The position numbers and the translations under genes are program-made. Shown here piece after piece: positions 19,292-56,091 of a DNA stretch of 64,000 nucleotides. The stretch is from positions 16,248,451 through 16,312,450 of the forward strand of contig OY783213.1 of NCBI GenBank assembly GCA_963678705.1, written 5' to 3'. Below the pieces are notes generated by a model. That model did no database searches, was not told the DNA's origin, and saw only the letters and a list, made by a program, of their open reading frames with translations. The DNA is from Panorpa germanica (Eukaryota > Arthropoda > Insecta > Mecoptera > Panorpidae). Within the stretch, counting starts at the first letter, position 1; each line of letters begins with the position of its first letter.

Positions 19292-19666
19292 CCCAGTAAA
19301 CATTTTGGAGTAAATTCGACTTAATTTCTATTACGTATCATGAATTTTTTGTCTGGAACGTGTTCGTTTTCTATTCAGTCGTTCAAAGGAAAGGTCCTTT
19401 TTATGAGCTACAGACATTGCAACGACGGTTCACTGCTGAATTAAAAGCGGAGTAGGTTTATGATTTATGACCGGATAATAAAAATATACCCATGTGGGAA
19501 AGAAACAGAAATACTTAATGAATGATGTTGGAAAAAGAAAGAATATTATTATGAAAAACTAACACAAAATCTGTGACAGGTAGAGAACTTGTAAAGCGTT
19601 AGAATAGAATTGTACGAGTGACTCGAACTTCACCAAATAGGACACTTCACCAAATTGTTTACTGGG
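19292..19666. mobile_element. 375-bp MITE, copy 1
   Basis: Bounded by CCCAGTAAACATTTTGG and its inverted form CCAAATTGTTTACTGGG. It is the same length as 50420-50794 and differs at only about three positions by eye, so at least one insertion is recent. Non-coding. The right end has two direct subterminal CACCAAAT repeats. A clear target-site duplication is not visible, so the superfamily is unassigned. Confidence 0.85.
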
Positions 19667-29400: not shown

Positions 29401-31882
29401 TATCGCATTTATTAATGGAAAAATTTAAAGTTTTGTGTTAGTAACAGTTTTATAAAATAATTAATTAATTAATGATATAATTATAGACAATTCTAAACAA
29501 ACAACTATTAAAGATTGTGATGGTATCGTTTCATAAACAAATAAGGAGTTAAAGAAAAATAATGGGCTTGTAAATTAATTCTAAATGCGATTTTTTTCAA
29601 CCTTGTTCCATCTATTATCTTTTTTAGTTGTTTAAATATCTAACAGCTGATGAAGATAAAAGATATTTGTGATTTGTTTTTGTTTATAACAAGAAAAAGT
29701 TATTATTAAAAGTCGTAGATAATATTATGATAATTGAAAAGCTGTTATAAAATTTTGTGGTACTTAATAGTTCTCAAGATAAGCAAAGGAACCGATCACA
29801 CACTTATTTTGAAGATGGCAGCCAAATGGAGACGCTCCAAACCCCGAAAAATTCACATTTCAATCCAGATTGGATATTTTTGACATAAGGAAACAAAAAA
29901 GTTGCAGACTGCCTAAATTGCACTGACAAGATTTAATAAATGAAATAAAAAATGTATTTTTTTAAATATGTAATAAAATATAGTTAGTGTTGAGTACAAT
30001 TCTCCAGAAAAGCTAAAATTAAGATTTGTAATATCCCAAAACATTATAGAATAAAAATAATTGACTCAATTTGATACTTACTTGTTGGTATGTAGGGCTC
30101 TGTGGATTGACATCAATGGTTGCAAGGTAATCACCTCCCGGGGCTCCTAATTTGGGTTGTACGCAAACTACATACATCAGCTCCTCCTTGGGTCCCTGCA
30201 TGGCATCCAAGGGTGTTGCATACCCAACACCACCAGGGCAACATTTTGGGCCTTCTTCTTTTGTATCTGAAAGATAATCAGTAACAATTGACGTAGTTTA
30301 TTCATACGCAATACTTGCAGGGTTATCATGAAGCAAAAGATTCAGATAATGCCGCGATTAAATGTCAAACTTAGCAACAGCATGACTTAGCAACAAATCT
30401 GGACTAGGTATTATGCAAACAATATTATTATTTGTTAGTGATAAAAATTATCTGTCACTATTTCAAGCTTATGTTCACATTGATTTTATCAATTAATCGT
30501 TTTCCGTATTAGCAATGGCCTTGTGAAGCATAACATCATTTCTATAAAACTGTATTGTACCTAGTGAACACTAAATGTAAACTCATGAATTATTTAACGT
30601 AATATTTTTTACCTAACGTTACGTTTTATTATTTACCGAAGCTTAACAAAATTCTGTTATATTAAATATTTTGTTAAATGTCATTAAAAGGCATCTAAAA
30701 TCATTTACTAATAAGTATTGGCAATGCTTCAACTTTATCTTCATTTGTATTTCGACAGGTGGAGTGGTTTCGCTATTTGTAGCCAATAAAATAGACATTT
30801 CATATGAACGATTGTGAAAGACTGTAATGTAAATGATCTACATCCTGTTATTCACATTTTTGGAATTCAGTAATATAAATAGTTCAATTAGTAACAATAG
30901 AAAACATTTAAAATGAAACGTTAAATAATATTTATAGTTTGTTTACTTTACTATACTATGCACGATAACTTAGTACAAACAGTTGGTCCTATTATATAAT
31001 TCAAATTCATGGACAATTATTTTAACTAGAAGATAAGAACAATATAATAAAGACAATGACTCGCATTTTTTATGTAAAGTGCAATAATTTGGTTGTATAG
31101 TTCAAATTACGAGAGTTCGCCGTTGACTCATACCTAAAACAAGTTGTGTCACATTATTCTATGTTAGAATGAACAATCACTATCTCGCTAATTTTTTTAT
31201 AATGTATAGAGAAACGATTAAGATAAAAGTAACTATCGTATCGTAGATTTATACGGATCTTATAACCTCTTTTGATTACAGTCACCGCCAAACTCTCGTA
31301 ATTTGAACTATAATCTACTTTTTTGTGTTTGGATTTGCTTTTTTAATTTTTTATATATTCAAAAGTAATTTTTAGGCGTATTTTTGATGTCGCGGAAATG
31401 GTATAAAAGTCTGTTGAATATAATTAATAATCGAAGTTATGTATTCTTGCTTACCACCCTTATAAAATCAAAACTTTATGTGTTGTTCGAGTCAGCTGTA
31501 AGTAATATCTGACGTTTGTTTATGCAATCTCTTTTACACTCCAAGGTTGAATGTTTCAAACGCAATGAAAAACGCAATATTTCGGTGACACTAAGTTCGG
31601 TTGTTGCTTTGTTTATTTAATTATATGCAGTAATAAAAACTGCCAACAATGATGAAGGTCAAAGATCATTAAACAAGTATAGGAATTAGACCAGCGTTAA
31701 AAATAATATAAAGATATACAAAATATTAAAATGCAAACTTAATAATATTATTATTTGTGAAACATAAACTTAACTGCTCTGTACCGAATGTTAAGTAAAG
31801 GGGCAGAAGGAAGACAATATTTGTTAATAACAATCGCTATTAGATATTAAAAACACTTACCGTTTTGCCCCATATTAGACAT
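26454..31882 (-). CDS. SELENBP1: Selenium-binding protein 1 / methanethiol oxidase, complete, ten coding exons
   Basis: Exons in coding order: 31861-31882, 30082-30266, 28889-29080, 27977-28136, 27790-27901, 27521-27715, 27254-27348, 26909-27096, 26576-26841, 26454-26502. All introns are GT-AG, and the joined length is 1464 nt (487 aa), close to the 472 aa of human SELENBP1. Family landmarks in order: [12 protein letters not shown] near the N-terminus, [14 protein letters not shown] (84-97), [11 protein letters not shown] (147-157), GYDFWYQP followed by [20 protein letters not shown] (263-272), GFVGCA, a [10 protein letters not shown] segment, [12 protein letters not shown], and the end [15 protein letters not shown]. 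The fold is a beta-propeller. In animals the enzyme oxidises methanethiol to H2S, H2O2 and formaldehyde. No signal peptide is seen, so it is probably cytosolic. The residue matching human Cys57 is Gln68. The start MSNMGQND follows TTTACGA; a second Met four codons in is a possible alternative. Confidence 0.96.
29081..30081. other. Intron 2 of the selenium-binding protein gene
   Basis: One kilobase of AT-rich intron without recognisable elements. Confidence 0.7.
30753..30786. repeat. GACAGGTG(G/A)AGTGGTTTCGC motif, intronic copy
   Basis: The segment CGACAGGTGGAGTGGTTTCG recurs as TGACAGGTGAAGTGGTTTCG at about 59988-60008, where it lies inside a piece related to the 375-bp MITE. It is probably a decayed fragment of the same element family. 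Confidence 0.4.
31096..31312. mobile_element. MITE with TA-flanked ~35-bp terminal inverted repeats, copy 3
   Basis: The best-preserved copy, sitting in intron 1 of the selenium-binding protein gene. The left end TATAGTTCAAATTACGAGAG continues TTCGCCGTTGACT; the right end is the inverted form, with AGTCACCGCCAAA preceding CTCTCGTAATTTGAACTATA. Length about 217 bp, non-coding. TA lies at both extremities. Confidence 0.78.
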
Positions 31883-34645: not shown

Positions 34646-35621
34646 AGGTTTAAATGAATTGTGTAACTTATTATATGTCAAATTTAAGCTTACATTTATA
34701 AGAGCGATGTAGTCCACATGTATGAGACTTTCAACCTCATAAAAACTACTAATATTAGTAAATAATTGTCAAAAATAGAAGTAGTATCCGAAATAATTAA
34801 ATTTGCAAATAAATATTCTTGTTTTAGCAGTATTGTTTTTTGTTTTTTAAATATGTTTGAACAGTACATTTGTTTTAAATAATATACTGATACTATAGCC
34901 ATAATTACAATTTATTGGCTTTATAAATACTTTTTTTTATTATTATTATTATAGTAATATACAAGTTCTAGTGTTAAAAGTGTTGCATTTATCCAGGCGT
35001 ACTACATATATGAATAAATAAAGAAGAATTGTGTAACACCTACCGGTCTCAGATAAATTTTGAAAATGCTATCACAATTATATCTGTATTCTTCTATTCA
35101 CAAACACAATTAATGTTAACAAACACTTTTAATTTTATAACAAGAACCATTTTTAATTTCCACTTAGTGCTTATCTTGTCGAAATGAGTTATAATCATTT
35201 ACAATTTGATGCCATCATGCTAAGCGTCACTTTTTATTCACTACGCTAACATTTATGTTTTGATTCACCAAGGACGATACACTTACATCGTTTATTTTAA
35301 CCGCTTTCTAATTAGTATCGTATTAGAAGCATATAGAAATTCAAAATCGTTTTATATATAATTTGATCGTAATACGTGGGACATGCGCTTTAAGTCTTTA
35401 TATATATAGGGGTGTAGCACCTTAGGGGTGAATCATGTCGGAAAAATATCATTGATCGTTCGAAAACAAAACCTGTGTACATGGGAGACAACATGTACCG
35501 CTATATCTATAAACGCAGGGAAAACTTGCAGATTCTATATTTAATAAATACGTCATTGTGATAACTCAACAAAACTTGCAGGTTAATTCTTTCTCTATAC
35601 TTTGTATATAGATACAGATGG

Positions 35622-35939
35622 TTGTTTAGTACAGGCCATGCGATAATAGTAGCAGTAACTCTTGATAACCTTACTAAATTACATTGGCAACCTCTTGAAC
35701 ACCTACCTTATAGCCCAGACCTAAACCTATGTTACCAACACTTGTTTAGTGAACTGAGGAAAGCATTAAGAGGAACAATATTTGAAGACGACGCTGCGAA
35801 TGAACAGCAAGTATGTAAATCGCTACGAGGACAGCCATTTTCTCTTTTCCTTGAAGACATCAAACAGCTTCTTATTCCATGGACAAAATGTATTTCTGTT
35901 AAAGGAAAGTATGTAGAAAAAAAGGAGCTTCGGTGGTAA
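35622..35939 (+). pseudogene. Mariner-type transposase fossil, C-terminal part
   Basis: A 105-residue frame resembles the C-terminal third of mariner transposases: TLDNLTKLHWQPLEHLPYSP, the third catalytic Asp in YSPDL, then HLFSELRKALRGTIFEDD, and W-x-KCI-x3-GKYVEK near the end. The DNARPH motif expected just before is corrupted, the upstream catalytic Asp region is not found in frame, and terminal inverted repeats were not located. It is therefore a dead, 5'-truncated copy. It could come from a Tc1-like relative, but the motif spacing favours mariner. Confidence 0.75.
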
Positions 35940-36251
35940 ATCACCAATAAATATATTTATTTAAATATTCCGGTTTGTACTTGAATGACGTAAAATAACA
36001 TAAGTAATCATTTTTATTGAGATATGGGTGTTTTTGTTTGATTATTACTAATCGCTAGACTTTAAAGTTTACATGCAATCTATTGTGGGTTAAATAAAAT
36101 AAATATAGCCGTTTAGTCAATTGCACTGATTAGCTCTTGCCAAAATTTATTTGCGTACAATATTAATGCACTAGCGTTCATCCCCGTCGCAAAGCGACGT
36201 CTGTCTTTTATATGTGAATTGAATTTCATCTCAAATTTTAATTTCCTTTTT

Positions 36252-36569
36252 ACCGTGACGAGATATTTTTACCGTGACGAGATATTTTTACCGTGACGAG
36301 ATATTTTTACCATGACGAGATATTTTTACCGTGACGAGATATTTTTACCGCGACGAGATATTTTTTACCGTGACGAGATATTTTTAACGTGACGAGATAT
36401 TTTTACCGTGACGAGATATTTTTACCGTGACGAGATATTTTTTACCGTGACGAGATATTTTTACCGTGACGAGATATTTTTACCGTGACGAGATATTTTT
36501 ACCGTGACGAGATATTTTTACCGTGACGAGATATTTTTTCGGTGACGAGATTTTTTTACCGTGACGAGA
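36252..36569. repeat. 19-bp minisatellite, 17 copies
   Basis: Tandem unit ACCGTGACGAGATATTTTT, with 17 copies by count. A few units carry single changes (CATGACG, CGCGACG, AACGTG, TCGGTGACG) or one extra T. The 19-bp unit is not a multiple of three, and no frame stays open across it, so it is not coding. The GC-rich core ACCGTGACGAG contrasts with the AT-rich surroundings. Confidence 0.95.
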
Positions 36570-36599: not shown

Positions 36600-38370
36600 T
36601 CTATTCTATATTCTTTGCATAGTCATTTTAATTTCGTATTTGTATTTTAAGAGTAAACCAATAATAGAAATGTTAGAGTTGAAAGGAAAAAGGAAAAGGA
36701 AATGCTCTGAATATAAATACCCTTCAAAGGATATCACATCCTGAATATGGTTTGTGAATCTCATATATTCATTTGTATAAGTATTTATTTATATTATACT
36801 TTTAGGGTCCTATTTACTTTGTAGATGTCTTTGCAAACCCAAACACATAGTCAACTCATAGTCTGACATCAGGCTGACGTTCTCGGTCACTGTGCCGTCA
36901 TTTTTAATAGTGATTGCAGTATCTTCTTCTGTTTTTATAAACTTGATACAGTTTATGAAGTGATACCATTTTTGTTTTTATACGTAAATTTGGAAATTTG
37001 CTTAGGAATTTGAACTGTAATCAATTGACCTTGAACTATATCATTTTTACTGACAATTAAAAAGATAATAGAACATATAAAATCATTTCTTCACCTTTTT
37101 TGTTTAATTATGTGGCAAGCATGGGCAATTATTCAAGGCACACATCGACAAAGGGAAATGAATCTCAAACTAAAATTTGCACTGGATAGAATGAAATATG
37201 AATCAACAGAATTAACATTGACCACTTGTCAATTTCAAACGTATCATATATAAACTCATTACAGTTGAAATATTTAGGCACAGACTGCAGCAAATGAATT
37301 TCCACCACAAACGGCTTGTGACTAGATACAATTGATTTTGTATGAGAGTTAAAAAAAGGAAATGGTCATTTAAGATAGGTTTTACTTAGAGCTAAAGACT
37401 AAATACTAGCATATTGAAATTTAAATCATTTAAATTTAATTTTACCCGACGTCTTATAGAGCTAGAACGACACGGGTCTAATCATGTAGCCACCGGTTAC
37501 ATTTTGCGTCTGTTCAATTACCGTGTATAACCTAAAAGCATTTTTAATCTTTTAATTTGATAGCTTTGAAAACGAACTATATATCTTATGCAGCTGTGAT
37601 AATTTTCTTAGTTTAATTATTTAGAATATTTGCAAAAATAAACGAAGTAAAACCTTATACAAAACGACTTTTTTATAGCACCTATAAATATTATTACATT
37701 TTTACAAATACCTGAGATTTTCACTACACCACTGTTTATGGACTTAGATCAATATCTACCCTAATAAAAGCACCCCAATTTGTTACATAGGGTAGTTACC
37801 AATTTTATTACACTCTTCTAACGTTATACTTACTTAAGAAGTCAACATTTAAACTATTCTGACTTATTAGGGACTAAAGTTTATTAAATTAAATCACTGA
37901 CCACATTATAAGAACTGACAGGAGTTGAGGACAAGCATGGAGTGTCCTTGCATCCCTTGGATGTCTAACTACCCTAACCCCATGTGTTTATTTTGTGGCT
38001 GTTAAATTTTAATAACACATTAAGTTGGTTTAGCACATATGTTTTGTTGGTTTATGGTTATTATTCAGATGCAGGAATATTAGAAGGTAATCAGCGAAAC
38101 CGAAAATAAAGTAGTTTAAAGTGTAGCAGACAATCAGGCGCAACTAAGTTTGTAAACTCGAAATAATATTTTCCCCTAGTTTTCTGGTAGATGCAGAGCC
38201 GCAACTAGAAGGACCCTTTAAATATTATATGAATTTATTATTATATTTATATATCATATATTATAATGTCCCAGGTGTACGGTTATATTCTTATGTTTGT
38301 TTTCTTATATTCTTATTTTCTTATACACGATTCGTATGGTAGCTCGAAAACGGCTCTGTCAATGTTTCTG
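36600..38370. other. Gene-free AT-rich stretch between minisatellite and satellite
   Basis: No exon, RNA gene or transposon end is recognised. It separates the 19-bp minisatellite from the large satellite block. Confidence 0.5.
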
Positions 38371-41300
38371 ATGCAGTTATATCCATTTATGTTTAAGAAG
38401 ACGAACTGCATTAAAAAATTTAAAATATCTTAAATACTTTAGATTTTATAAGGGATTCTAAAAACTCATGGACTTTATTTTCAAAAAGAAAAATTATTGA
38501 TTTCTTAATATTTTTTGATGCAATTATATTCATTTATAATTAAGAAGACGAACTGCATTAAAAAATTTAAAATATCTTAACTATTTTGGATTTTATAAGG
38601 GATTCTAAAAATTCATGGACTTTTTTTTTCAAAAAGAAAAATTATTGATTTCTTTATATTTTTTGATGCAGTTATATCCATTTATGTTTAAGAAGACGAA
38701 CTGCATTAAAAAATTTAAAATATCTTAACTATTTTGGATTTTATAAGGGATTCTAAAAATTCATGGACTTTTTTTTTCAAAAAGAAAAATTATTGATTTC
38801 TTTATATTTTTTGATGCAGTTATATTCATTTATAATTAACACGACGAACTGCATTAAAAAATTTAAAATATCTTAACTATTTTGGATTTTATAAGGGATT
38901 CTAAAAATTCATGGACTCTTTTTTCAAAAAGAAAAATTATTGATTTCTTAATATTTTTTGATGCAGTTATATTCATTTATAATTAAGAAGACGAACTGCA
39001 TTAAAAAATTTAAAATATCTTAACTATTTTGGATTTTATAAGGGATTCTAAAAATTCATGGACTTTTTTTTTCAAAAAGAAAAATTATTGATTTCTTTAT
39101 ATTTTTTGATGCAGTTATATTCATTTATAATTAACACGACGAACTGCATTAAAAAATTTAAAATATCTTAACTATTTTGGATTTTATAAGGGATTCTAAA
39201 AATTCATGGACTCTTTTTTCAAAAAGAAAAATTATTGATTTCTTAATATTTTTTGATGCAGTTATATTCATTTATAATTAAGAAGACGAACTGCATTAAA
39301 AAATTTAAAATATCTTAACTATTTTGGATTTTATAAGGGATTCTAAAAACTCATGGACTTTATTTTCAAAAAGAAAAATTATTGATTTCTTAATATTTTT
39401 TGATGCAATTATATTCATTTATAATTAAGAAGACGAACTGCATTAAAAAATTTAAAATATCTTAACTATTTTGGATTTTATAAGGGATTCTAAAAATTCA
39501 TGGACTTTTTTTTTCAAAAAGAAAAATTATTGATTTCTTTATATTTTTTGATGCAGTTATATTCATTTATAATTAACACGACGAACTGCATTAAAAAATT
39601 TAAAATATCTTAACTATTTTGGATTTTATAAGGGATTCTAAAAATTCATGGACTCTTTTTTCAAAAAGAAAAATTATTGATTTCTTAATATTTTTTGATG
39701 CAGTTATATTCATTTATAATTAAGAAGACGAACTGCATTAAAAAATTTAAAATATCTTAACTATTTTGGATTTTATAAGGGATTCTAAAAATTCATGGAC
39801 TTTTTTTTTCAAAAAGAAAAATTATTGATTTCTTAATATTTTTTGATGCAGTTATATCCATTTATGTTTAAGAAGACGAACTGCATTAAAAAATTTTAAA
39901 TATCTTAACTATTTTGGATTTTATAAGGGATTCTAAAAATTCATGGACTTTTTTTTTAAAAAGAAAAATTATTGATTTCTTAATATTTTTTGATGCAGTT
40001 ATATTCATTTATAATTAAGAAGACGAACTGCATTAAAAAATTAAAAATATTTTAACTATTTTGGATTTTATAAGGGATTCTAAAAATTCATGGACTTTTT
40101 TTTCAAAAAGAAAAATTATTGATTTCTTAATATTTTTTGATGCAATTATATTCATTTATAATTAAGAAGACGAACTGCATTAAAAAATTTAAAATATCTT
40201 AAATACTTTAGATTTTATAAGGGATTCTAAAAACTCATGGACTTTATTTTCAAAAAGAAAAATTATTGATTTCTTAATATTTTTTGATGCAATTATATTC
40301 ATTTATAATTAAGAAGACGAACTGCATTAAAAAATTTAAAATATCTTAACTATTTTGGATTTTATAAGGGATTCTAAAAATTCATGGACTTTTTTTTTCA
40401 AAAAGAAAAATTATTGATTTCTTTATATTTTTTGATGCAGTTATATTCATTTATAATTAACACGACGAACTGCATTAAAAAATTTAAAATATCTTAACTA
40501 TTTTGGATTTTATAAGGGATTCTAAAAATTCATGGACTCTTTTTTCAAAAAGAAAAATTATTGATTTCTTAATATTTTTTGATGCAGTTATATTCATTTA
40601 TAATTAAGAAGACGAACTGCATTAAAAAATTTAAAATATCTTAACTATTTTGGATTTTATAAGGGATTCTAAAAATTCATGGACTTTTTTTTTCAAAAAG
40701 AAAAATTATTGATTTCTTAATATTTTTTGATGCAGTTATATCCATTTATGTTTAAGAAGACGAACTGCATTAAAAAATTTTAAATATCTTAACTATTTTG
40801 GATTTTATAAGGGATTCTAAAAATTCATGGACTTTTTTTTTAAAAAGAAAAATTATTGATTTCTTAATATTTTTTGATGCAGTTATATTCATTTATAATT
40901 AAGAAGACGAACTGCATTAAAAAATTAAAAATATTTTAACTATTTTGGATTTTATAAGGGATTCTAAAAATTCATGGACTTTTTTTTCAAAAAGAAAAAT
41001 TATTGATTTCTTAATATTTTTTGATGCAGTTATATTCATTTATAATTAAGAAGACGAACTGCATTAAAAAATTTAAAATATTTTAACTATTTTGGATTTT
41101 ATAAGGGATTCTAAAAATTCATGGACTTTTTTTTCAAAAAGAAAAATTATTGATTTCTTAATATTTTTTGATGCAGTTATATTCATTTATAATTAAGAAG
41201 ACGAACTGCATTAAAAAATTTAAAATATTTTAACTATTTTGGATTTTATAAGGGATTCTAAAAATTCATGGACTTTTTTTTCAAAAAGAAAAATTATTGA

Positions 41301-44300
41301 TTTCTTAATATTTTTTGATGCAGTTATATTCATTTATAATTAAGAAGACGAACTGCATTAAAAAATTTAAAATATTTTAACTATTTTGGATTTTATAAGG
41401 GATTCTAAAAATTCATGGACTTTTTTTTCAAAAAGAAAAATTATTGATTTCTTAATATTTTTTGATGCAGTTATATTCATTTATAATTAAGAAGACGAAC
41501 TGCATTAAAAAATTTAAAATATCTTAACTATTTTGGATTTTATAAGGGATTCTAAAAATTCATGGACTTTTTTTTCAAAAAGAAAAATTATTGATTTCTT
41601 AATATTTTTTGATGCAGTTATATTCATTTATAATTAAGAAGACGAACTGCATTAAAAAATTTAAAATATCTTAACTATTTTGGATTTTATAAGGGATTCT
41701 AAAAATTCATGGACTTTTTTTTCAAAAAGAAAAATTATTGATTTCTTAATATTTTTTGATGCAGTTATATTCATTTATAATTAAGAAGACGAACTGCATT
41801 AAAAAATTAAAAATATTTTAACTATTTTGGATTTTATAAGGGATTCTAAAAATTCATGGACTTTTTTTTCAAAAAGAAAAATTATTGATTTCTTAATATT
41901 TTTTGATGCAATTATATTCATTTATAATTAAGAAGACGAACTGCATTAAAAAATTTAAAATATCTTAAATACTTTAGATTTTATAAGGGATTCTAAAAAC
42001 TCATGGACTTTATTTTCAAAAAGAAAAATTATTGATTTCTTAATATTTTTTGATGCAATTATATTCATTTATAATTAAGAAGACGAACTGCATTAAAAAA
42101 TTTAAAATATCTTAACTATTTTGGATTTTATAAGGGATTCTAAAAATTCATGGACTTTTTTTTTCAAAAAGAAAAATTATTGATTTCTTTATATTTTTTG
42201 ATGCAGTTATATTCATTTATAATTAACACGACGAACTGCATTAAAAAATTTAAAATATCTTAACTATTTTGGATTTTATAAGGGATTCTAAAAATTCATG
42301 GACTCTTTTTTCAAAAAGAAAAATTATTGATTTCTTAATATTTTTTGATGCAGTTATATTCATTTATAATTAAGAAGACGAACTGCATTAAAAAATTTAA
42401 AATATTTTAACTATTTTGGATTTTATAAGGGATTCTAAAAATTCATGGACTTTTTTTTCAAAAAGAAAAATTATTGATTTCTTAATATTTTTTGATGCAG
42501 TTATATTCATTTATAATTAAGAAGACGAACTGCATTAAAAAATTTAAAATATCTTAACTATTTTGGATTTTATAAGGGATTCTAAAAATTCATGGACTTT
42601 TTTTTCAAAAAGAAAAATTATTGATTTCTTAATATTTTTTGATGCAGTTATATTCATTTATAATTAAGAAGACGAACTGCATTAAAAAATTTAAAATATC
42701 TTAACTATTTTGGATTTTATAAGGGATTCTAAAAATTCATGGACTTTTTTTTCAAAAAGAAAAATTATTGATTTCTTAATATTTTTTGATGCAGTTATAT
42801 TCATTTATAATTAAGAAGACGAACTGCATTAAAAAATTAAAAATATTTTAACTATTTTGGATTTTATAAGGGATTCTAAAAATTCATGGACTTTTTTTTC
42901 AAAAAGAAAAATTATTGATTTCTTAATATTTTTTGATGCAATTATATTCATTTATAATTAAGAAGACGAACTGCATTAAAAAATTTAAAATATCTTAAAT
43001 ACTTTAGATTTTATAAGGGATTCTAAAAACTCATGGACTTTATTTTCAAAAAGAAAAATTATTGATTTCTTAATATTTTTTGATGCAATTATATTCATTT
43101 ATAATTAAGAAGACGAACTGCATTAAAAAATTTAAAATATCTTAACTATTTTGGATTTTATAAGGGATTCTAAAAATTCATGGACTTTTTTTTTCAAAAA
43201 GAAAAATTATTGATTTCTTTATATTTTTTGATGCAGTTATATTCATTTATAATTAACACGACGAACTGCATTAAAAAATTTAAAATATCTTAACTATTTT
43301 GGATTTTATAAGGGATTCTAAAAATTCATGGACTCTTTTTTCAAAAAGAAAAATTATTGATTTCTTAATATTTTTTGATGCAGTTATATTCATTTATAAT
43401 TAAGAAGACGAACTGCATTAAAAAATTTAAAATATCTTAACTATTTTGGATTTTATAAGGGATTCTAAAAATTCATGGACTTTTTTTTTCAAAAAGAAAA
43501 ATTATTGATTTCTTAATATTTTTTGATGCAGTTATATCCATTTATGTTTAAGAAGACGAACTGCATTAAAAAATTTTAAATATCTTAACTATTTTGGATT
43601 TTATAAGGGATTCTAAAAATTCATGGACTTTTTTTTTAAAAAGAAAAATTATTGATTTCTTAATATTTTTTGATGCAGTTATATTCATTTATAATTAAGA
43701 AGACGAACTGCATTAAAAAATTAAAAATATTTTAACTATTTTGGATTTTATAAGGGATTCTAAAAATTCATGGACTTTTTTTTCAAAAAGAAAAATTATT
43801 GATTTCTTAATATTTTTTGATGCAGTTATATTCATTTATAATTAAGAAGACGAACTGCATTAAAAAATTTAAAATATTTTAACTATTTTGGATTTTATAA
43901 GGGATTCTAAAAATTCATGGACTTTTTTTTCAAAAAGAAAAATTATTGATTTCTTAATATTTTTTGATGCAGTTATATTCATTTATAATTAAGAAGACGA
44001 ACTGCATTAAAAAATTTAAAATATCTTAACTATTTTGGATTTTATAAGGGATTCTAAAAATTCATGGACTTTTTTTTCAAAAAGAAAAATTATTGATTTC
44101 TTAATATTTTTTGATGCAGTTATATTCATTTATAATTAAGAAGACGAACTGCATTAAAAAATTTAAAATATCTTAACTATTTTGGATTTTATAAGGGATT
44201 CTAAAAATTCATGGACTTTTTTTTCAAAAAGAAAAATTATTGATTTCTTAATATTTTTTGATGCAGTTATATTCATTTATAATTAAGAAGACGAACTGCA

Positions 44301-45660
44301 TTAAAAAATTTAAAATATCTTAACTATTTTGGATTTTATAAGGGATTCTAAAAATTCATGGACTTTTTTTTCAAAAAGAAAAATTATTGATTTCTTAATA
44401 TTTTTTGATGCAGTTATATTCATTTATAATTAAGAAGACGAACTGCATTAAAAAATTTAAAATATCTTAACTATTTTGGATTTTATAAGGGATTCTAAAA
44501 ATTCATGGACTTTTTTTTCAAAAAGAAAAATTATTGATTTCTTAATATTTTTTGGTGCAGGTATATTCATTTATAATTAAGAAGACGAACTGCATTAAAA
44601 AATTAAAAATATTTTAACTATTTTGGATTTTATAAGGGATTCTAAAAATTCATGGACTTTTTTTTCAAAAAGAAAAATTATTGATTTCTTAATATTTTTT
44701 GATGCAGTTATATTCATTTATAATTAAGAAGACGAACTGCATTAAAAAATTTAAAATATTTTAACTATTTTGGATTTTATAAGGGATTCTAAAAATTCAT
44801 GGACTTTTTTTTCAAAAAGAAAAATTATTGATTTCTTAATATTTTTTGATGCAGTTATATTCATTTATAATTAAGAAGACGAACTGCATTAAAAAATTTA
44901 AAATATCTTAACTATTTTGGATTTTATAAGGGATTCTAAAAATTCATGGACTTTTTTTTCAAAAAGAAAAATTATTGATTTCTTAATATTTTTTGATGCA
45001 GTTATATTCATTTATAATTAAGAAGACGAACTGCATTAAAAAATTTAAAATATCTTAACTATTTTGGATTTTATAAGGGATTCTAAAAATTCATGGACTT
45101 TTTTTTCAAAAAGAAAAATTATTGATTTCTTAATATTTTTTGATGCAGTTATATTCATTTATAATTAAGAAGACGAACTGCATTAAAAAATTAAAAGTAT
45201 TTTAACTATTTTGGATTTTATAAGGGATTCTAAAAATTCATGGACTTTTTTTTCAAAAAGAAAAATTATTGATTTCCTAATATTTTTTGATGCAGTTATA
45301 TTCATTTATAATTAAGAAGACGAACTGCATTAAAAAATTTAAAATATTTTAACTATTTTGGATTTTATAAGGGATTCTAAAAATTCATGGACTTTTTTTT
45401 CAAAAAGAAAAATTATTGATTTCTTAATATTTTTTGATGCAGTTATATTCATTTATAATTAAGAAGACGAACTGCATTAAAAAATTTAAAATATCTTAAC
45501 TATTTTGGATTTTATAAGGGATTCTAAAAATTCATGGACTTTTTTTTTCAATTTTTTTTTTATTGATTTCTTAATATTTTTGATGCAGTTATATCCGTTA
45601 AGGTTTAAGAAGGCGAACTGTTTTAACAGATTTGAAATATCTACAGTTTTGTGAATTTTA
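38371..45660 (+). repeat. Satellite DNA, left array: ~49 monomers of ~147 bp
   Basis: Counting from the landmark ATGCA(G/A)TTAT, monomers follow every 146-148 bp from 38371 to 45583. Each unit contains GAAGACGAACTGCATT, the A-tract AAAAAATTTAAAA, ATTTTGGATTTTATAAGGG, AAATTCATGGAC, a T8-9 run and AAAAATTATTGATTTC. Within a unit, TGCAGTT and AACTGCA form a short dyad about 25 nt apart. Diagnostic variants (AATACTTTAG; TTAACACGACG; TATCCATTTATG; AAATTAAAAATATTTT) recur in order and reveal seven-monomer blocks, for example 41757-42787 against 42788-43818. No frame is open. Confidence 0.97.
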
Positions 45661-45710
45661 GAACGGTTTTATAAAAAATATTTTTACATTTTAAAAATCT
45701 TATAAAATCC
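45640..45710. repeat. Inversion junction of the satellite block
   Basis: Here the left array meets the right array in opposite orientation. The last left-oriented monomer (from 45583) is unusually diverged (ATATCCGTTAAGGTTTAAG), and the run TTTTATAAAAAATATTTTTA marks the approximate centre of symmetry. The monomer before it has its A-rich tract replaced by a T run (45550-45562). Confidence 0.7.
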
Positions 45711-48680
45711 ACAAAAGTTGAGATATTTTAAATTTATTGACACAGCTCGTCTTCTTAAAGCCTAAAGCAAATAACTGCATCAAAAGATATTAAGAAATCA
45801 ATAAATTTTTTTTTGAAAAAAAAGTCCATGAATTTTTAAAAACCCTTATAAAATCCACAAATGTTGAGATATTTTAAATGTATTGACACAGTTCGTCTTC
45901 TTAAAGCCTAAAGCAAATAACTGCATCAACAGATATTAAGAAATCAATAATTTTTTTTTTGAAAAAAAAGTCCATGAATTTTTAGAACTCCTTATAAAAT
46001 CCACAAATGTTGAGATATTTTAAATATATTGACACAGTTCGTCTTCTTAAAGCCTAAAGCAAATAACTGCATCAAAAGATATTAAGAAATCAATAATTTC
46101 TTTTTTGAAAAAAAAGTCCATGAATTTTTAAAAACCCTTATAAAATCCACAAATGTTGAGATATTTTAAATGTATTGACACAGTTTGTCTTCTTAAAGCC
46201 TAAAGCAAATAACTGCATCAACAGATATTAAGAAATCAATAATTTTTTTTTTGAAAAAAAAGTCCATGAATTTTTAGAACTCCTTATAAAATCCACAAAT
46301 GTTGAGATATTTTAAATTTATTGACACAGTTCGTCTTCTTAAAGCCTAAAGCAAATAACTGCATCAAAAGATATTAAGAAATCAATAATTTCTTTTTTGA
46401 AAAAAAAGTCCATGAATTTTTAAAAACCCTTATAAAATCCACAAATGTTGAGATATTTTAAATGTATTGACACAGTTCGTCTTCTTAAAGCCTAAAGCAA
46501 ATAACTGCATCAACAGATATTAAGAAATCAATAATTTTTTTTTTGAAAAAAAAGTCCATGAATTTTTAGAACTCCTTATAAAATCCACAAATGTTGAGAT
46601 ATTTTAAATTTATTGACACAGTTCGTCTTCTTAAAGCCTAAAGCAAATAACTGCATCAAAAGATATTAAGAAATCAATAATTTCTTTTTTGAAAAAAAAG
46701 TCCATGAATTTTTAAAAACCCTTATAAAATCCACAAATGTTGAGATATTTTAAATGTATTGACACAGTTCGTCTTCTTAAAGCCTAAAGCAAATAACTGC
46801 ATCAACAGATATTAAGAAATCAATAATTTTTTTTTTGAAAAAAAAGTCCATGAATTTTTAGAACTCCTTATAAAATCCACAAATGTTGAGATATTTTAAA
46901 TTTATTGACACAGTTCGTCTTCTTAAAGCCTAAAGCAAATAACTGCATCAAAAGATATTAAGAAATCAATAATTTCTTTTTTGAAAAAAAAGTCCATGAA
47001 TTTTTAAAAACCCTTATAAAATCCACAAATGTTGAGATATTTTAAATGTATTGACACAGTTCGTCTTCTTAAAGCCTAAAGCAAATAACTGCATCAACAG
47101 ATATTAAGAAATCAATAATTTTTTTTTTGAAAAAAAAGTCCATGAATTTTTAGAACTCCTTATAAAATCCACAAATGTTGAGATATTTTAAATTTATTGA
47201 CACAGTTCGTCTTCTTAAAGCCTAAAGCAAATAACTGCATCAAAAGATATTAAGAAATCAATAATTTCTTTTTTGAAAAAAAAGTCCATGAATTTTTAAA
47301 AACCCTTATAAAATCCACAAATGTTGAGATATTTTAAATTTATTGACACAGTTCGTCTTCTTAAAGCCTAAAGCAAATAACTGCATCAAAAGATATTAAG
47401 AAATCAATAATTTTTTTTTTGAAAAAAAAGTCCATGAATTTTTAGAACTCCTTATAAAATCCACAAATGTTGAGATATTTTAAATTTATTGACACAGTTC
47501 GTCTTCTTAAAGCCTAAAGCAAATAACTGCATCAAAAGATATTAAGAAATCAATAATTTTTATTTTGAAAAAAAAAGTCCATGAATTTTTAGAACTCCTT
47601 ATCAAATCCACAAATGTTGAGATATTTTAAATTTATTGACACAGTTCGTCTTCTTAAAGCCTAAAGCAAATAACTGCATCAAAAGATATTAAGAAATCAA
47701 TAATTTTTTTTTTGAAAAAAAAAGTCCATGAATTTTTAGAAACCCTTATAAAATCCACAAATGTTGAGATATTTCAAATTTATTGACACAGTTCGTCTTC
47801 TTAAAGCCTAAAGCATATAACTGCATCAAAAGATATTAAGAAATCAATAAAAAAGAAATTTGAAAAAAAAGTCCATGAATTTTTAGAAACCCTTATAAAA
47901 TCCACAAATGTTGAGATATTTCAAATTTATTGACACAATTCGTCTTCTTAAAGCCTAAAGCAAATAACTGCATCAAAAGATATTAAGAAATCTATAATTT
48001 TTTTTTGAAAAAAAAGTCCATGAATTTTTAAAAACCCTTATAAAATCCACAAATGTTGAGATATTTTAAATTTATTGACACAGTTCGTCTTCTTAAAGCC
48101 TAAAGCAAATAACTGCATCAAAAGATATTAAGAAATCAATAATTTTTTTTTGAAAAAAAAGTCCATGAATTTTTAAAAACCCTTATAAAATCCACAAATG
48201 TTGAGATATTTTAAATGTATTGACACAGTTCGTCTTCTTAAAGCCTAAAGCAAATAACTGCATCAAAAGATATTAAGAAATCAATAATTTTTTTTTTGAA
48301 AAAAAAGGTCCATGAATTTTTAGAAACCCTTATAAAAACCACAAATGTTGAGATATTTCAAATTTATTGACACAATTTTGTCTTCTTAAAGCCTAAAGCA
48401 AATAACTGCATCAAAAAATATTTAAAAATCAATAATTTTACTTTTTAAAAAAAGTCCATGAATTTTTGGAACCCTTTATAAAATCCAAAATAGTTAAGAT
48501 ATTTCAAATTTTTTAACACAGTTCGTCTTCTTAAAGTTTAGTGGATATAACTGTATTAAAAGTTTTCAAAGATCCTAAATTTTCTCTAGAAAAAAATGTC
48601 CATGAATTTAAAAAAGGTCGCATAGAAACCTAAAAAGCATTGATGTTTAAAGTGTAATAAAGCAGTTGCATCAAACCATG
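45700..48680 (-). repeat. Satellite DNA, right array: ~20 monomers of 146 bp, inverted subfamily
   Basis: The landmark ATAACTGCAT recurs every 146 bp from 45771 to about 48546. Read on the - strand, the units are homologous to the left array but form a distinct subfamily (AAACATTTGTGGATTTTATAA, TTTGCTTTAGGCTTTAAGAAG). Between about 45771 and 47250 units alternate between CAAAAG and CAACAG versions, with linked AAAAACCC/GAACTCC changes, giving a 292-bp dimer. Monomers decay towards 48680. The edge monomer near 48480-48550 carries left-array diagnostic bases. Confidence 0.95.
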
Positions 48681-48978
48681 AAAAACAAATGAAAAAGCCT
48701 ATAAATATAGAAAAGATTACAAAAAGCCAGAACATTAGTTTATCAATTGAACGTGTAGCGGATATTTCTCTATTAAAAATTAGACAACTAAGAATTCTAT
48801 AACAAACGTATAATACACATCCATTGCTAGGCAATGGGGCGAAGAGCTAGTATTATTTAAATTTTGTGTACAATACTGAGCTGAGAGGCTGAGTCCTTTC
48901 AGTAGTTATGGAATGGAATCGAGGAATCGATTAAGTTTATAATTATGTATCAAATAAACTTTATAATTATCAAACTCA

Positions 48979-49059: not shown

Positions 49060-50419
49060 TTTGTAATGTGTAACGAAACATCTTTAATACTTAAAAATAC
49101 TTTTTATGCTTTGCAGAAATATTCAGAAGCTGTCAATGACATCTATTGTGATTTTAGTGAAACCGATAATCCTGATTACAGGTTAGCTCAGGTATAGGTT
49201 TATGCCCAACATAAGGTACAGGACTATTTTTAAATGAAGAATTCTTCATTGTAAATTTTTCCAAGATAGATTGAATTTATGGAATAAATTAATAGAAAGT
49301 GGTTTAATATTTTAATTTCGCTTCGGGCCTCTCAAGTAATGAGTACGGCACTGGTAACACCATATCCTTTTCAATCAATAAAAATAAAGGGACGTTCATG
49401 TAAACGTACACTCAGAAACGGTTGCTTATATTTATTTTATACTTTATCCAGTAAGTCACTCATTTTTACAGTGCAGTTGTGTTTGACGTTGACACCCTCA
49501 TAGAAAATAAGTATTTGGTGTTGCGTGGTGCTAGGCGCAAACTCGGTAGAAAATGACAAAAAAAAAGATTTAGCTTTATGATGACATTTTTGCACTAGGC
49601 ATTTAAGATTGAATAAAAATACTGTAATTTTTTTATATTTCATTTTATTTAATATATTATTTACATTCATTTTATATTATATTTAGTATCCTAATAAATT
49701 ATTACAGCCTTGTATATCTGGTTGCTTATAAATAATATTAGGGGAATATTGGTAATGTTTTAATAACTTAATAGCTATAAAATATTTATGAATTCAGTTC
49801 TTTCTTATAAAAATATACACATTAACATTATACATTAAATATAACATCAGTCATTTGATTTTAAATTATATATCAATAATATAAATAATATCAATTGATC
49901 AATATCAATAATATCAATTATATATCATAATTTAGTAAAGTTCAAACCATCACTATTTAATTTACATTTCTACATTTACAGTGAATTACAAAATTAATTT
50001 ATTATATACATATATAATTAAGGATAATATCCTTTAATAAGAATTCAAAAAATGTATTATTAAAAAATATTAATAAATTTGAACTAAAATAATTAAAAAT
50101 TTGTGGTTTAATTGCTTAAACTAAATATCACTGCTTTATCAGTACTTTGTGTGTGCTGCTTATATGTACATCTTATATCTAAACAAACAATATATACAAT
50201 TTCATATTATATACCTAAACTAATAAATATAATGGTGGTTTTGCACGGTGAGATACGATTCAGATTTTGATAGAGTGCGTTATTATGTAATTTTTGTAAC
50301 TTATATTTTATATAACTATTATGGAACATATATTATGGATTTAGAGCCCGCAAGTTAATTCTTTATTAGGGCCGCCCTGACTCTAATTATGTTTTAAAAT
50401 TGATATATACCACATACTA
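49060..50419. other. Gene-free AT-rich stretch
   Basis: No exon is supported. It includes an AT-rich run of AATATCAAT-type short repeats at about 49865-49930. Confidence 0.5.
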
Positions 50420-50794
50420 CCCAGTAAACATTTTGGAGTAAATTCTACTTAATTTCTATTACATATCATGAATTTTTTGTCTGGAACGTGTTCGTTTTCT
50501 ATTCAGTCGTTCATAGGAAAGGTCCTTTTTATGAGCTACAGACATTGCAACGACGGTTCACTGCTGAATTAAAAGCGGAGTAGGTTTATGATTTATGACC
50601 GGATAATAAAAATATACCCATGTGGGAAAGAAACAGAAATACTTAATGAATGATGTTGGAAAAAGAAAGAATATTATTATGAAAAACTAACACAAAATCT
50701 GTGACAGGTAGAGAACTTGTAAAGCGTTAGAATAGAATTGTACGAGTGACTCGAACTTCACCAAATAGGACACTTCACCAAATTGTTTACTGGG
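50420..50794. mobile_element. 375-bp MITE, copy 2
   Basis: Same length and nearly the same sequence as 19292-19666, with the ends CCCAGTAAACATTTTGG and CCAAATTGTTTACTGGG. Flanked by TA on both sides (..ACTA / TAAT..), possibly the target duplication, although copy 1 does not show it. It lies just beyond the 3' end of the APCDD1-like gene. Confidence 0.87.
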
Positions 50795-50946: not shown

Positions 50947-53900
50947 TCAAATTAAAGTTTTTAGGAGGTATGCAAGTAAAACTAACACTGAAATATTTTG
51001 TATTGAGATGGAAGAACTACTATTCATAAATTGTTGATTGAATTGTAAATTTTCAACGTTATCATCACATTGCGCTAATGGTAAGCCATAGGACGTTGGT
51101 CTCTCTTCAAAATCATTTAAATTATATCCCTTGTACTTATGGTTTTTAAAACTACTAGGATTCCCCTCGAAATGTACCTCCTTACTTCCCATTGACAGTA
51201 AAGTGGTTCCATAAATATCCACCTCTAATTTTAAAATATTTTTTTCAAAATCTTTCAAATCTACACCATAAATTGGACAGTATTGATCCCGAATTAATTT
51301 CGGTTTGTTAAGTTTGAATTCCCCCACGTTGCAATAATTTTGAGTTAACATAACTTGCAGCGCCAATTCATCTCGTTTGATAAATTTACTATTTTTAAAA
51401 TGCAATAATTTATTAAATTGTTCTAAAAGCATAAAATCATGCACTGTAATTTTAGTGCTTTTTATATAGTAATCAACATCAGTGGCGCCCTGCAGCAACT
51501 TATTTTTAAAGCTTAAGAAATACTCCCCATTTATCAAAATTGTGTACGTTTCCATGGTGCAAAACGCGTCATCAAAGTAACGAAACTTTGCAAAAAACTT
51601 TCTCTTGTATTCGTTGAAATGAAAATTACGTAGTAGGAAACCACCTGTTGGCTGTGACTCACAGCTTGTAGATTGCCAGCTTCCCGTCAAGTACACCGGA
51701 AGTAGCGCACGTCTCGATAAATATGGCGGCGACATCATAGAAGCCTTAGCTATACTTTCACAAACCACACAATTTGTGGTTAATTTCGTATAATTCTGTG
51801 AGTTGCTCTCCACCTTCTCTCGCATTTGAACTAAAAACTTGGATGATTCGTCTTGTAAGAGATCGGATGAAACTCTAGGTTGAAAACTACCAAGAAATAT
51901 GCTTCCTGGTAATTTAGTATGGAACTCTATCGGTTTATCGAAACTTGCTTCGCCATCAGTAGTCCTGTCTGTATTGTCAAACGTTTTTATCATCGGAACC
52001 TGGTAACCCAGCGCCAATTGAGCCGATTCGGAACTGCCTACTGCTCCGAGGAGAAGCTCCAAGTTTTGTTCGCTTTTTTGCATCTTAATTACAAGCAATT
52101 CACTGAAGTCTATAGCCAGGGCATGAGAGCAGTCCGTTTTCTGTGACTTTTTAGACGTGTGAGCTTTAACTTTTTTACCGCCATACAAAAAATACTCGCG
52201 GTTTGGTCTCCAGTTGCGTGTTACAGATCCTGAAATAAAAAACAAATGAAATAATGCAATACGTCTATATATTTACTACCTTATAACAGAATAAAACATT
52301 TTTAAATTATAAATAATCTTTGTAACAAACCTGGACAAGTATTATTAACTTTTTCTTGTAATTCGCGAGCAATTGCGGTAGAATGAGGAACTACTTTGAC
52401 GCTGGACACACTGAATGCGCCGCTATCAATGTATCCTTCCGCCGAAATGGAATATAGGGGAGAACTGCACCACTCATCTACATAGTGGTGCAAATTCAAA
52501 TTGAATGAATAATTTGGGAAAAATTCATAAGATCGAAGAACAAATTTTGCTCCAACTCTTGACTCGCATCTGAAATTAAAAGAAAATATTATTAAATGAA
52601 ACTATATCCCCAAAAATATGATCAAGAAATAAGGTAACACATAAATTTGAAACACAAATTATTTTTTATAACTTTTAATTCGTTTAATAATAAAGAGCCA
52701 GTTGTTAGAAATTTGGACATGGTTCACAAGCCCGTTAAATATCCCTGATCATGTTAAACTATTAAAATAATAATAATCCTTTAAAAAACAATTAATTTTA
52801 AATAAACAAAATATAAAAATGTCGTTTTAAAATATCTCGTCATGAATATTAATTTATCAGAGCCAGTAATCTAAACAATAAACAAAACACAGATCCCCTG
52901 CATGCCCCACTCCTCTCCTCATCCTCTTCACCAACCCTCAGCCCTCATGTCCAGCAGAACCCCACGTCTGGGCTCCAGCTCCAGCTCCAAGCTGTCACAG
53001 CAGGGTCCTCCAACAACATTTTACTATTTTTATTTATCTAACATATATTTTTTGTTTGTTTTCCTTTTTTTTATATTCACGTTTAAATCTTTCTCAAAGT
53101 GACAGATCATAAATAATTCAACAAAACGTTTGTTGTCTCTTACTATTCCTATATATTAAAAAGAAACAGATATAGTTTTCTGGAAGAAACTTATTCAGAA
53201 ACACATAAAAACCACTTGTAAACATTTTGAAATTTCAATTTAAAATTCACCCCCCATAGTGAGTTTCTTTTAGATAGTTAAAAAAACTATATAGAAATTA
53301 ATGTTTGGGCCGTATAGATTCATATCTTACATGTTTTTATGGGCAAGTCCAGAGATTCTTAAACTGTGATACGTAGCCACAGTTGTTAGGCTGTGTAATT
53401 ATAATTATATCTAAATTCTAAAAAATTGTACCTTTTTTAGATATGATATATTATAGAGAGTTGTATTTCGGGTTTATCTATCATTACAAGAGTTACCTAC
53501 GGAAATAATTTTACGTCGTAATAATAAAACTTCTTAAATAGTCTTTTAAGGATTATTTAATCTTAAGAATTAAGGAAACCCTCTTAAGGATTAAAGGTTT
53601 TTAAAATAGTTCTAAATAAATCACTTTTTAATTTTCTTGTAATTCAATCAAAAATAAAAATAGTTAATAGTAAAAATTATCGAGGTCATATTTCATATAC
53701 CAATGCATTAGTAGTACATATAAAGTCTGTGGATTATTTAAAAATCATTTTTTACATAAAAGAAATTAAAACCATTATTATAACCAAGAAAACTTAAACA
53801 TAAAAGAAAAGGCTAAATCTGTCCAAGAGATATATCAATCCAAACAAACCACCCACCGGAAAACGTCCCGCTGTCAATATTACCTAACTTTGACATAATA

Positions 53901-56091
53901 GTTTTACAGAAACAAGGGTGTGTGGCCTTTTTAGATCTTTGTATTATCATTTGCCCTTATGAATAGTCGTATACTAAATGAATCTGGACCACCCTAAGTA
54001 CTATTATATTATATAGCTTTTAAATAACTCTTAAAATTATTTTATACATTTTAGGATTGTTAGGAATAGAGCATAGAAGCTTTTTTTTCGCAGCTGCTTT
54101 TAGAAGAGGACTGAACTATCATAGTAGAACAAAGGGTAAGAGGACACTATTATTTTGTTAAATTACAAAAGAGTAATTTTCAGTGTGTGTGGTATATTGA
54201 TATATGTCGAAGGATTGGAGGATATGTGTCTCCCTAAGGGTTTGTTTTATTGTCATGATTGTCTTTAGATTTGGTGTGCATTTAGTAAAACAATTAGAAT
54301 ACGTTCTACTTATGGCAAATGCCTGCTTTTAAAATCAAAAACATGAACACGGAAACGTACTTTTACACACAGTTTAAGAATCTCTTTTTAAATAATAACT
54401 TTTACACTAAATGCTCTTTGAATACTTGAATATTATAACAAGGTAAAAATGGCCCTCGTTTTTTTTTTCTAATCTTTTATGTTGGACGTGCTAGTTATAT
54501 AAATATTGTTTTTGACTTTTGAATGTTTTTTTAAGATAGGTTTTAAACGACTGATTAATTGAACTTGTGAAATTTTAAAATCAAGAGCACATCGACTTCT
54601 TAGTAAAACCAAAAATATTATATTTATTTATCGGTGGAATATATCTTTGCAAAAGTTCAAATATTATTTTTGTTATCTTTTCCTTTTTATTATCTTGTTA
54701 TCTTTATTACTTTAAAAGCATATTGACGTAAGATCTTAATGATTTTCTAAATAAAACAAAATTCATATCTCGTATTCTTTATGTATATATATATAGAACA
54801 CTTTATCAAAAATGCAATGAAATGAAGAGAGCACTACGGTGGTCATTAACTTCGAGGCTTGCATTTTGGAAATTTTGGTTTAACAATGATGTTTTTATAA
54901 TCTACTGTACAAAAGTTGCATGAGTCAAGCACAAAATTTGGTACAACATATCACTAGGTAAAGAAAGATTCAGTTACATGTTCTCTACAATTTTGTCGTT
55001 TTATAATTTAAAGACCACAAAGAAGTCTATTAAGTATCATTCCCACTCACTGCTTTAATTTAATTTTGTATTTTGTATTTAATTTAAATTGTTTAGCATA
55101 TGCCAGTACGCGTAGTCATTCACAGTACCATTTTTAATTTAATTTATTTTTTAAGTTTTCTTAGTTCTTTTTTAGAACCTTACAAGGTCCAATGTTTTAA
55201 ATTAAAAATATTTAATTAAGAAAAACTATATTATATTATAACCTCTAAAATGTGACTAAAATCTGTCAAAATGCAGTAGGATTTTTATTTAAAAGAAGTT
55301 TAATGTCAGTTTGTCAAAAATAAAAACAATTTCTATTACTAATTGTTATTAAAAACGGCAATTTCCATAGTTAATTTTATCCAACTGTCGAATTGTCAAA
55401 ATTTATATTACTAAAGACGCATGCGCGCCAACTAAATTAACTAAACTCAAATTAAAACACGAATATGACTAGGAATGCCTATTCTGAAAACCTGAAATCT
55501 AGATTAAAATATTAGAAAATGAGATTTATGATCTGTTAGGTTGGTAACCTTACACAAGGATTGTGATGTCACATGCACTTGGAATGTGTACAACGTTGAA
55601 TCCCTTTAATAATTAAAGAGACAAAATGACTTTTTTAATTGTTAATATCTCTTAAATATATCTCTTAAAATAATTAAATTTGATTGTCTAGTAACCCACT
55701 TTATCAATATATAGTACACTTTTATAGAAATTAAGGCATAGGACACAAGCCCATTAAATTGCAATTATGAAAATACTTAAGACCGGAATCTCAATAATGA
55801 TCTTCTTAAGATCATATAATCTTAATGTATACAACAAACTACCAAACATAAACTCACCCTTTGGAGGTCCATTTTCCCGGAAGATTTTCACTAATCGAAA
55901 CTTTTTCAAATTCCGGTAATATTTCCGTACAAATATCGTTGCCACTGGCTTCAATTGACGACAAAACTAAAACAATTAATCTTAGTTTAGATATTTATTT
56001 ATAAATATTAATTAACATACGACAAACAAGGTTAATATCGTTAATTACCTTTCAACAACATCAAAACAATAAACATTGATTTTGATAACAT
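50947..56091 (-). CDS. APCDD1-like protein, complete, four coding exons (557 aa)
   Basis: Exons in coding order: 56049-56091, 55858-55966, 52331-52569, 50947-52229. Introns are GT-AG and the joined length is 1674 nt. Residues 1-21 form a signal peptide (MLSKSMFIVLMLLK then a hydrophobic stretch). The first APCDDC-type module starts at GKWTSKGCESR (from about 45), with FVLRSYEFFP, a VKVVPHSTAIA strand and NNTCPG. A second starts at GSWQSTSCES (W315, C320) with FLLRNFHFNEY, an FCTMETYTILINGEY segment and a GATDVDYY strand, as in APCDD1. Vertebrate APCDD1 is a membrane glycoprotein that inhibits Wnt signalling, probably by binding Wnt and LRP; the same role here is inference. The protein is slightly longer than human APCDD1 (514 aa). 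The C-terminus (544-557) is hydrophobic and ends without a cytoplasmic tail, after a Ser cluster (534-537). Confidence 0.9.
52890..53015. other. GC-rich block in intron 3 of the APCDD1-like gene
   Basis: About 125 bp clearly richer in G+C than anything nearby, beginning at GATCCCCTGCATGCCCCAC and including a CCAGCTCCAGCTCCA repeat. On + a frame reads through it (SPHPLHQPSALMSSRTPRLG) before running into AT-rich DNA. The block is antisense to, and inside an intron of, the APCDD1-like gene. No domain is recognised; it may be an exon of another gene, a retrocopy fragment or foreign DNA. Confidence 0.4.
55032..55503 (+). repeat. Dispersed CATTCCCACTCACT repeat, longest copy (~470 bp)
   Basis: Starts AAGTATCATTCCCACTCACT and ends near CTGAAAACCTGAAATCTAGA. 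Colinear with 18353-18630 over most of its left part. It sits in the large intron of the APCDD1-like gene. No open frame; the element class is not clear because terminal inverted repeats, a poly-A tail and a Helitron CTRR end were not convincingly seen. Confidence 0.7.
55593..55755 (+). repeat. Solo arm of the inverted-repeat element family
   Basis: ACAACGTTGAATCCCTTTAA, TAATTAAAGAGACAAAATG, the TATAGTACACTTTTATAGAAA segment and CACAAGCCCATT match 57352-57520 and, reversed, 58430-58560. It lies in the intron between exons 2 and 3 of the APCDD1-like gene. Confidence 0.6.

Follow-up and report, generated by a model that had tools for sequence, protein, structure and literature searches.

The stretch of DNA analysed here (the window; 64,000 nucleotides of the mecopteran Panorpa germanica, assembly GCA_963678705.1, contig OY783213.1, designated C10:16248451–16312450) belongs to a genome assembly of 464,208,970 bases in 249 contigs and is without any N. 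Family matches identify exons of the DUF229, selenium-binding protein and APCDD1 families at 1–513, 26539–30297 and 50950–52601, respectively, and a satellite element is inserted near these genes, with all three exon families in the same 64 kb. The element is 10,597 bp long (38254–48850, forward strand), with both ends located between a host A at 38253 and a host T at 48851, and most of it consists of two satellite arms of opposite orientation. We consider it very probable that this satellite block is the interior, or cargo, of a non-autonomous Helitron, which has inserted further copies of this two-armed block elsewhere in the genome.

The satellite block extends from 38365 to approximately 48700 within the parent unit 38254–48850. 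An earlier note on this DNA, made from the letters alone, had placed it at 38371–48680; the block is real, and its limits are corrected here. Tandem Repeats Finder (TRF) reports a left array at 38365–45642 (period 147, 49.4 copies) and a right array at 45699–48609 (period 146, 19.9 copies). A monomer search divides the block into 71 slots, A01–A50 on the forward strand (38365–45698) and B01–B21 on the reverse strand (45699 to approximately 48706), with 31 distinct sequences among the 71 monomers. The arms meet head-on near 45.67–45.70 kb, in good agreement with the approximately 49 direct and 20 inverted monomers, joined near 45.65 kb, that had been described previously. The left arm (A01–A49, 38365–45576, forward strand), which is supported by TRF, the monomer search and block duplications, represents subfamily A, and the right arm (B01–B20, 45699–48562, reverse strand), supported by TRF and the monomer search, represents subfamily B. 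With edge monomers excluded, the mean monomer identity is 97.4% in the core of A, 96.3% in the core of B and 85.1% between them, which bears out the view that the arms are homologous and of different subfamilies. The block is thus not a simple recent inversion of one piece, as had also been stated.

Each arm carries traces of turnover. In arm A, blocks of up to 1,271 bp are exactly duplicated; arm B shows in part a two-monomer period of 292 bp, as well as an exact 861-bp repeat. Singletons account for 8 of 24 monomers in the outer quarters of arm A, whereas the inner half has none among 26 monomers. In arm B, they account for 9 of 10 in the outer part, compared to 4 of 11 elsewhere. Singletons at the array edges speak for local turnover alone. 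The differences between the A and B consensus sequences are concentrated in alignment columns 1–77 (17 of 21), compared to 20 of 43 columns that vary within arms (Fisher p 0.014), and the second half of the monomer (columns 78–148) may be constrained or converted. In monomers B16 (47833–47979) and A49 (45431–45576), the short A-tract after TTTTTTTTCA is inverted, which is likely a micro-inversion. A CENP-B box (up to two mismatches) is absent from 38365–48700, and its 35 matches in the window compare with 41.4 in shuffled sequences. AA/TT periodicity near 10 bp in the monomers does not exceed that of shuffled monomers (p 0.88 and 0.47). Monomer motifs gave no matches in viral and prokaryote collections, and the monomer letters gave one match among papers, which is unrelated.

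At the junction, a 97-nt inverted pair with 78% complementarity flanks a 14-nt spacer at 45675–45688. The odd junction-proximal monomer A50 and the spacer together occupy 45577–45698 (forward strand), which pairs in inverted orientation with 45689–45785, and A50 and B01 show a mirrored truncation where the arms meet. A 600-base strand across the junction is predicted to fold with −177 kcal/mol, with 237 of the 249 pairs crossing the junction, whereas the predicted folds of three stretches from the array interior reach −45 to −63 kcal/mol. The junction hairpin is a prediction of the folding model, and a role of the junction as a replication barrier or in chromatin organisation, as suggested in the earlier note, is likewise hypothetical. 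A fold-back scar at the junction could have been the origin of the ancestral arm pair.

The head-on junction recurs across the genome. A 401-bp query spanning it was searched against the genome and the best candidates were scored, so that the counts given here are lower bounds; it matches at least 26 further places over nearly the whole length, with 91–95% identity. The 36-base centre of the junction, with up to three mismatches, is found at 30 places including the window, while the reversed pattern used as a control is found at none. The union of the two scans comprises at least 33 places, i.e. the window and at least 32 others. An assembly artefact would find some room in the exact block duplications of arm A, which could mask a wrong monomer count. 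However, the 33 junctions are independently placed and have matching ends, and the window is free of N; because the same junction is assembled at 32 or more further places, a false join is very unlikely, and an artefact has in our estimate a practically negligible probability.

Ten of the 26 or more further junction places were fetched with approximately 10 kb on either side; these and the window are the 11 loci referred to below. All ten are two-armed, with direct monomers meeting inverted ones at the junction, and the numbers of left/right monomer matches in their main blocks are 11/12, 14/27, 14/7, 17/43, 19/17, 11/16, 13/22, 34/16, 14/12 and 10/13. Two loci, C12_5665 and C9_7734, have a few extra separate monomers beyond the main block. 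The junction monomer is 96.0% identical over the 11 loci (55 pairs, minimum 90.9%), compared to 75% and 79% identity with A and B, respectively, as judged from the first 60 monomers of each class. Since it is conserved over 11 loci and distant from both subfamilies, the junction monomer is an inherited part of the unit and not a locally decayed edge. The outermost monomer B21 (48563–48667, reverse strand) is strongly decayed, has a profile match with an E-value of 5e-7, and resembles the odd edge at other loci. A local decay of the array edges was considered and dropped, as the odd junction and right-edge monomers recur at other loci.

The dispersed unit has defined ends. In 9 of the 11 loci, the flanks remain alike for approximately 180 bp outside the arrays and then stop abruptly at one point, reading outward ...CCATTGCTAGGCAATGGGGCGAAGAGCTAG. 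In the window, this 3′ module of 183 bp occupies 48668–48850 (forward strand), and its layout comprises a hairpin, GGCGAAGAG and CTAG. The 17-nt hairpin (48821–48837, forward strand) ends 13 nt before the terminus and has a predicted energy of −6.9 kcal/mol, compared to −2.9 ± 1.55 for 300 shuffled sequences (p 0.010). The terminal CTAG lies at 48847–48850 (forward strand) and is followed by the host T. All of the 11 loci except C9_7734 have the 3′ end; in each of these ten a T comes next, and nine of them terminate in CTAG. On the other side, a 5′ module of 111 bp (38254–38364, forward strand) starts with TC at an A|TC boundary, and its inner part is common to the left flanks of four other loci. 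Canonical Helitrons begin with 5′ TC, end with 3′ CTRR, carry a palindrome of 16–20 nt approximately 11 bp from the 3′ end, and insert between A and T without duplication, according to the relevant passages of a published account (PMC4067079). The unit in Panorpa bears these structural marks of a canonical Helitron. No stop-free frame in the element exceeds 86 amino acids, and the element is therefore non-autonomous.

The 3′ end also tracks the satellite genome-wide. Together with the following T, and with up to three mismatches, it occurs at 144 places, whereas the reversed pattern occurs at none. When 69 of these places were paired with the junctions, a 3′ end was found within 9 kb of at least 31 of the 33 junctions. 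Conversely, monomers are present within 1.5 kb of all eight exact 3′ ends that were examined, four of which are junction loci already counted. A second group among the 144 has the loop CCAGG in place of CTAGG and may come from a related family, or else from the autonomous partner.

Two of the copies can be compared with an empty site. C8_18324 and C3_1511 are inserted in the same dispersed repeat, an uninterrupted copy of which lies to the left of C17_9437. When the flanks on either side of each copy (the copies being 5,544 and 7,415 bp long) are joined, they align straight through the empty repeat with no base duplicated or lost; 60-base flanks were aligned, and the similarity extends over approximately 40–46 bases to the left and 50 bases to the right of the insertion. 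The insertion points, AAAAGTA|TACTATATATTG in C8_18324 and GTGTACTA|TATATTGATAAAG in C3_1511, are 5 bases apart. Neither of these two insertions has a target-site duplication, and neither is at the TT or T-rich target of Helentron-type elements. The empty-site match is the decisive result, from a sample of two insertions set against one empty copy. A dispersed repeat is common to the flanks of C17_9437, C21_15974, C8_18324 and C3_1511, and has been an insertion target more than once.

The same data bear on two other forms of mobility. A foldback or other terminal-inverted-repeat transposon, with tandem repeats serving as inverted arms as in Tetris, would account for the arms and for their mobility. 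However, the flanks outside the arrays do not match each other: left and right flanks share chance-like short stretches alone (best 28 bp, E 0.017), leaving no terminal inverted repeats beyond the arrays. In addition, the empty sites are without duplication and the 3′ end is of the Helitron type, and we regard a foldback transposon as quite improbable. Satellite arrays can move by recombination, and pieces of satellite could have been spread by circular DNA or segmental duplication, with a Helitron end that lies close by fortuitously or served as a partner in recombination; the longer flanks that some loci have in common would fit such a process. That the block stops at the same base in 10 of 11 loci, that the two empty sites are exact, and that 31 or more of 33 junctions have the 3′ end would not, and we give this explanation little credence.

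The composition of the arms allows the history of the copies to be followed. The assignment of monomers to A or B rests on 17 diagnostic sites, excludes monomers shorter than 60 bases, and covers 13 of the 33 junction loci (the window, the ten fetched loci and two swapped copies described below), with 20 unclassified. The left arm is mainly A and the right arm mainly B in 8 of the 11 loci, while A and B are interleaved in both arms in the other three (C8_7640, C3_1511 and C9_7734). B monomers are present within the left arm near the junction in five of these eight loci; the window has none. As the A-left/B-right arrangement is common to 8 of 11 loci, the A/B difference arrived with the element. 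Identity means were calculated from monomers with at least 130 aligned bases. The A monomers of the window are 97.2% identical to each other and 93.1% identical to those of other loci, and the corresponding values for B are 96.1% and 91.7%. In C17_9437, C21_40605, C3_2192, C12_5665 and C21_15974, identity of the left-arm A monomers within a locus does not exceed that between loci, to within 0.2 points. Local homogenisation is thus real but secondary, and it affects some copies, the window included.

These results also bear on the claim that the arms were homogenised independently after an inversion. The homogenisation in the window stands, whereas the split into A and B came with the element. 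An origin in the window itself, in which an inversion or head-on duplication of one array gave rise to two arms that diverged afterwards, would form a local macro-dyad (a term used for direct and inverted satellite subarrays that face each other), and the two inverted arms, the local homogenisation and the singletons at the array ends speak for such an origin. Against this stand the same junction at 32 or more other places, the common ends, the junction and its odd monomer in all 11 loci, and the like A and B arms in eight of them. A local origin, as implied in the earlier note, is not upheld and appears extremely unlikely. Since the junction, the odd monomer and the A/B arms are common to copies elsewhere, they are older than the insertion in the window and travel with the Helitron.

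The core of the element seems to have been flipped in some copies. With respect to the 3′ end, the junction is oriented as in the window at 25 of the 33 loci and swapped at six, with two lacking a listed 3′ end. Recombination between the inverted arms of one copy would flip the core, shifting A monomers to the right and B monomers to the left. In the swapped copy C19_3425, the left arm has 10 A monomers followed by 3 B, and the right arm reads m, 14 A, mmm, with two weak matches past the 3′ end; this is the composition that recombination between inverted arms predicts. The swapped copy C21_7777 reads AAAAAAAABABBAB / mABBBBABmm. A third swapped copy, C3_1511, has A and B interleaved in both arms and is uninformative with regard to a flip. 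A core flip would accordingly be represented by one clear case and five other swapped orientations, three of them seen as orientation alone.

The following course of events would account for the observations on a non-autonomous Helitron. Both arms and the head-on junction probably arose in an ancestor of the element. A putative autonomous Helitron would supply, in trans, the protein that recognises its 5′ and 3′ modules, as is expected from the family, and through rolling-circle transposition both inverted satellite arms would together reach new A|T sites. After insertion, unequal exchange may have altered the number of monomers in some copies, including that in the window, and homogenised the arms of these copies, as the block duplications suggest. 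The inverted arms within one copy may also recombine and flip the core, to which the swapped orientations and the one informative copy point. No host function is necessary to explain the element. Alternatively, the long inverted arms might be a working part, in that a giant hairpin of the single-stranded form would help the element to replicate, terminate or survive, with arm recombination making the core invertible; we think this rather unlikely.

Several observations weigh against the Helitron interpretation. A clean A|TC lies beside the left arm in 3 of the 11 loci (the window, C8_18324 and C3_1511), and a 5′ motif was not found beside the arm in four. The A|TC motif of C9_7734 is 1.1 kb off the array and perhaps belongs to a neighbour, the boundary in C8_7640 is T|TC, and another Helitron-like CTAG end directly abuts the 5′ side in C21_40605 and C3_2192. 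No 5′ motif was found in either of the two swapped copies C19_3425 and C21_7777, and the latter is a mosaic, not a clean flip, which several exchanges would explain less neatly. At the 3′ side, the last four bases are CAAG in 1 of the 10 loci, and two of the 33 junctions are without a 3′ end among those listed. The base before the insertion in C8_18324 is A, but G in the empty copy. Finally, the autonomous partner is putative. As a separate observation, the 5′ end of a second copy directly follows CTAG in C17_9437, an end-to-end insertion as with C21_40605 and C3_2192.

Central satellite arrays are already well known from Helitron-type elements, as relevant passages of two papers attest (PMC7492417, PMC12628747). 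The Helentron-type Cg_HINE elements of Crassostrea gigas (PMC7492417) resemble the Panorpa element in being rolling-circle elements with tandem repeats of 140–180 bp between left and right modules, a 3′ palindrome and dispersed copies, and two element types hold two arrays. In the passages that describe them, however, the arrays invariably have the same orientation relative to the flanks and none exceeds 29.3 monomers, whereas the Panorpa element has facing arms of up to 50 and up to 43 monomers and canonical Helitron ends. A review mentions central arrays "oriented in different directions" in oyster Helitron/Helentron elements (PMC12628747), which, as worded there, lowers the novelty. Canonical Helitrons and DINE-1, as portrayed in parts of PMC4067079, share the 5′ TC, 3′ CTRR, 3′ palindrome and A/T insertion without duplication; the Panorpa element differs in that a two-armed satellite palindrome makes up nearly all of its interior, with no coding frame. 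In the Tetris foldback transposon and TIR-220 satellite of Drosophila virilis, tandem repeats in inverted arms likewise seed satellite arrays; from what the relevant section reports, terminal inverted repeats and duplications of the target site set Tetris apart from the Panorpa element (PMC4079207). As a conserved feature of a Helitron, two long arms joined head-on look new, judged by passages from open-licence PubMed Central papers.

A further structural likeness is to the macro-dyads of Tribolium (PMC13081366), in which direct and inverted satellite subarrays are accompanied by predicted hairpins, and the subunits at the inversion sites are degenerate yet conserved (23.5% and 10.7% diverged), according to the passages on them. 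In Panorpa, too, direct and inverted subarrays join at a conserved inversion site. The Tribolium structures are megabase arrays in (peri)centromeric regions and are not called a mobile element in the passages describing them, whereas the Panorpa block is an inserted unit near genes whose inversion-site conservation stems from transposition. In its corresponding passages, the Tribolium paper states that such symmetries are documented in Tribolium only and suggests a structural role (PMC13081366). Copying by a transposon can conserve head-on arrays and inversion sites genome-wide without selection for structure, and conserved inversion sites need not imply function. Since the arms are labelled by A and B, a single family allows transposition to be distinguished from array growth that follows insertion and from exchange between the inverted arms. 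A Helitron with 71 monomers also bears on the argument that long arrays limit mobility, advanced in a part of PMC7492417, although the array in the window may have grown after insertion.

With respect to the surroundings, the end of the element is approximately 2.1 kb away from the stop of the APCDD1-like frame, and the DUF229 exon has no relative among viral contigs. A frame at 35565–35939, without a Pfam match, resembles a relic of a mariner transposase. A 19-bp minisatellite, TTTTTACCGTGACGAGATA, with approximately 17 copies (36247–36569) lies 1.7 kb to the left of the element. The window also contains a pair of dispersed repeats at 19279–19666 and 50405–50794, which are 98% identical, and further such pairs at 18351–18627 and 55030–55364, at 11301–11520 and 31096–31312, and at 57273–57434 and 58479–58638.

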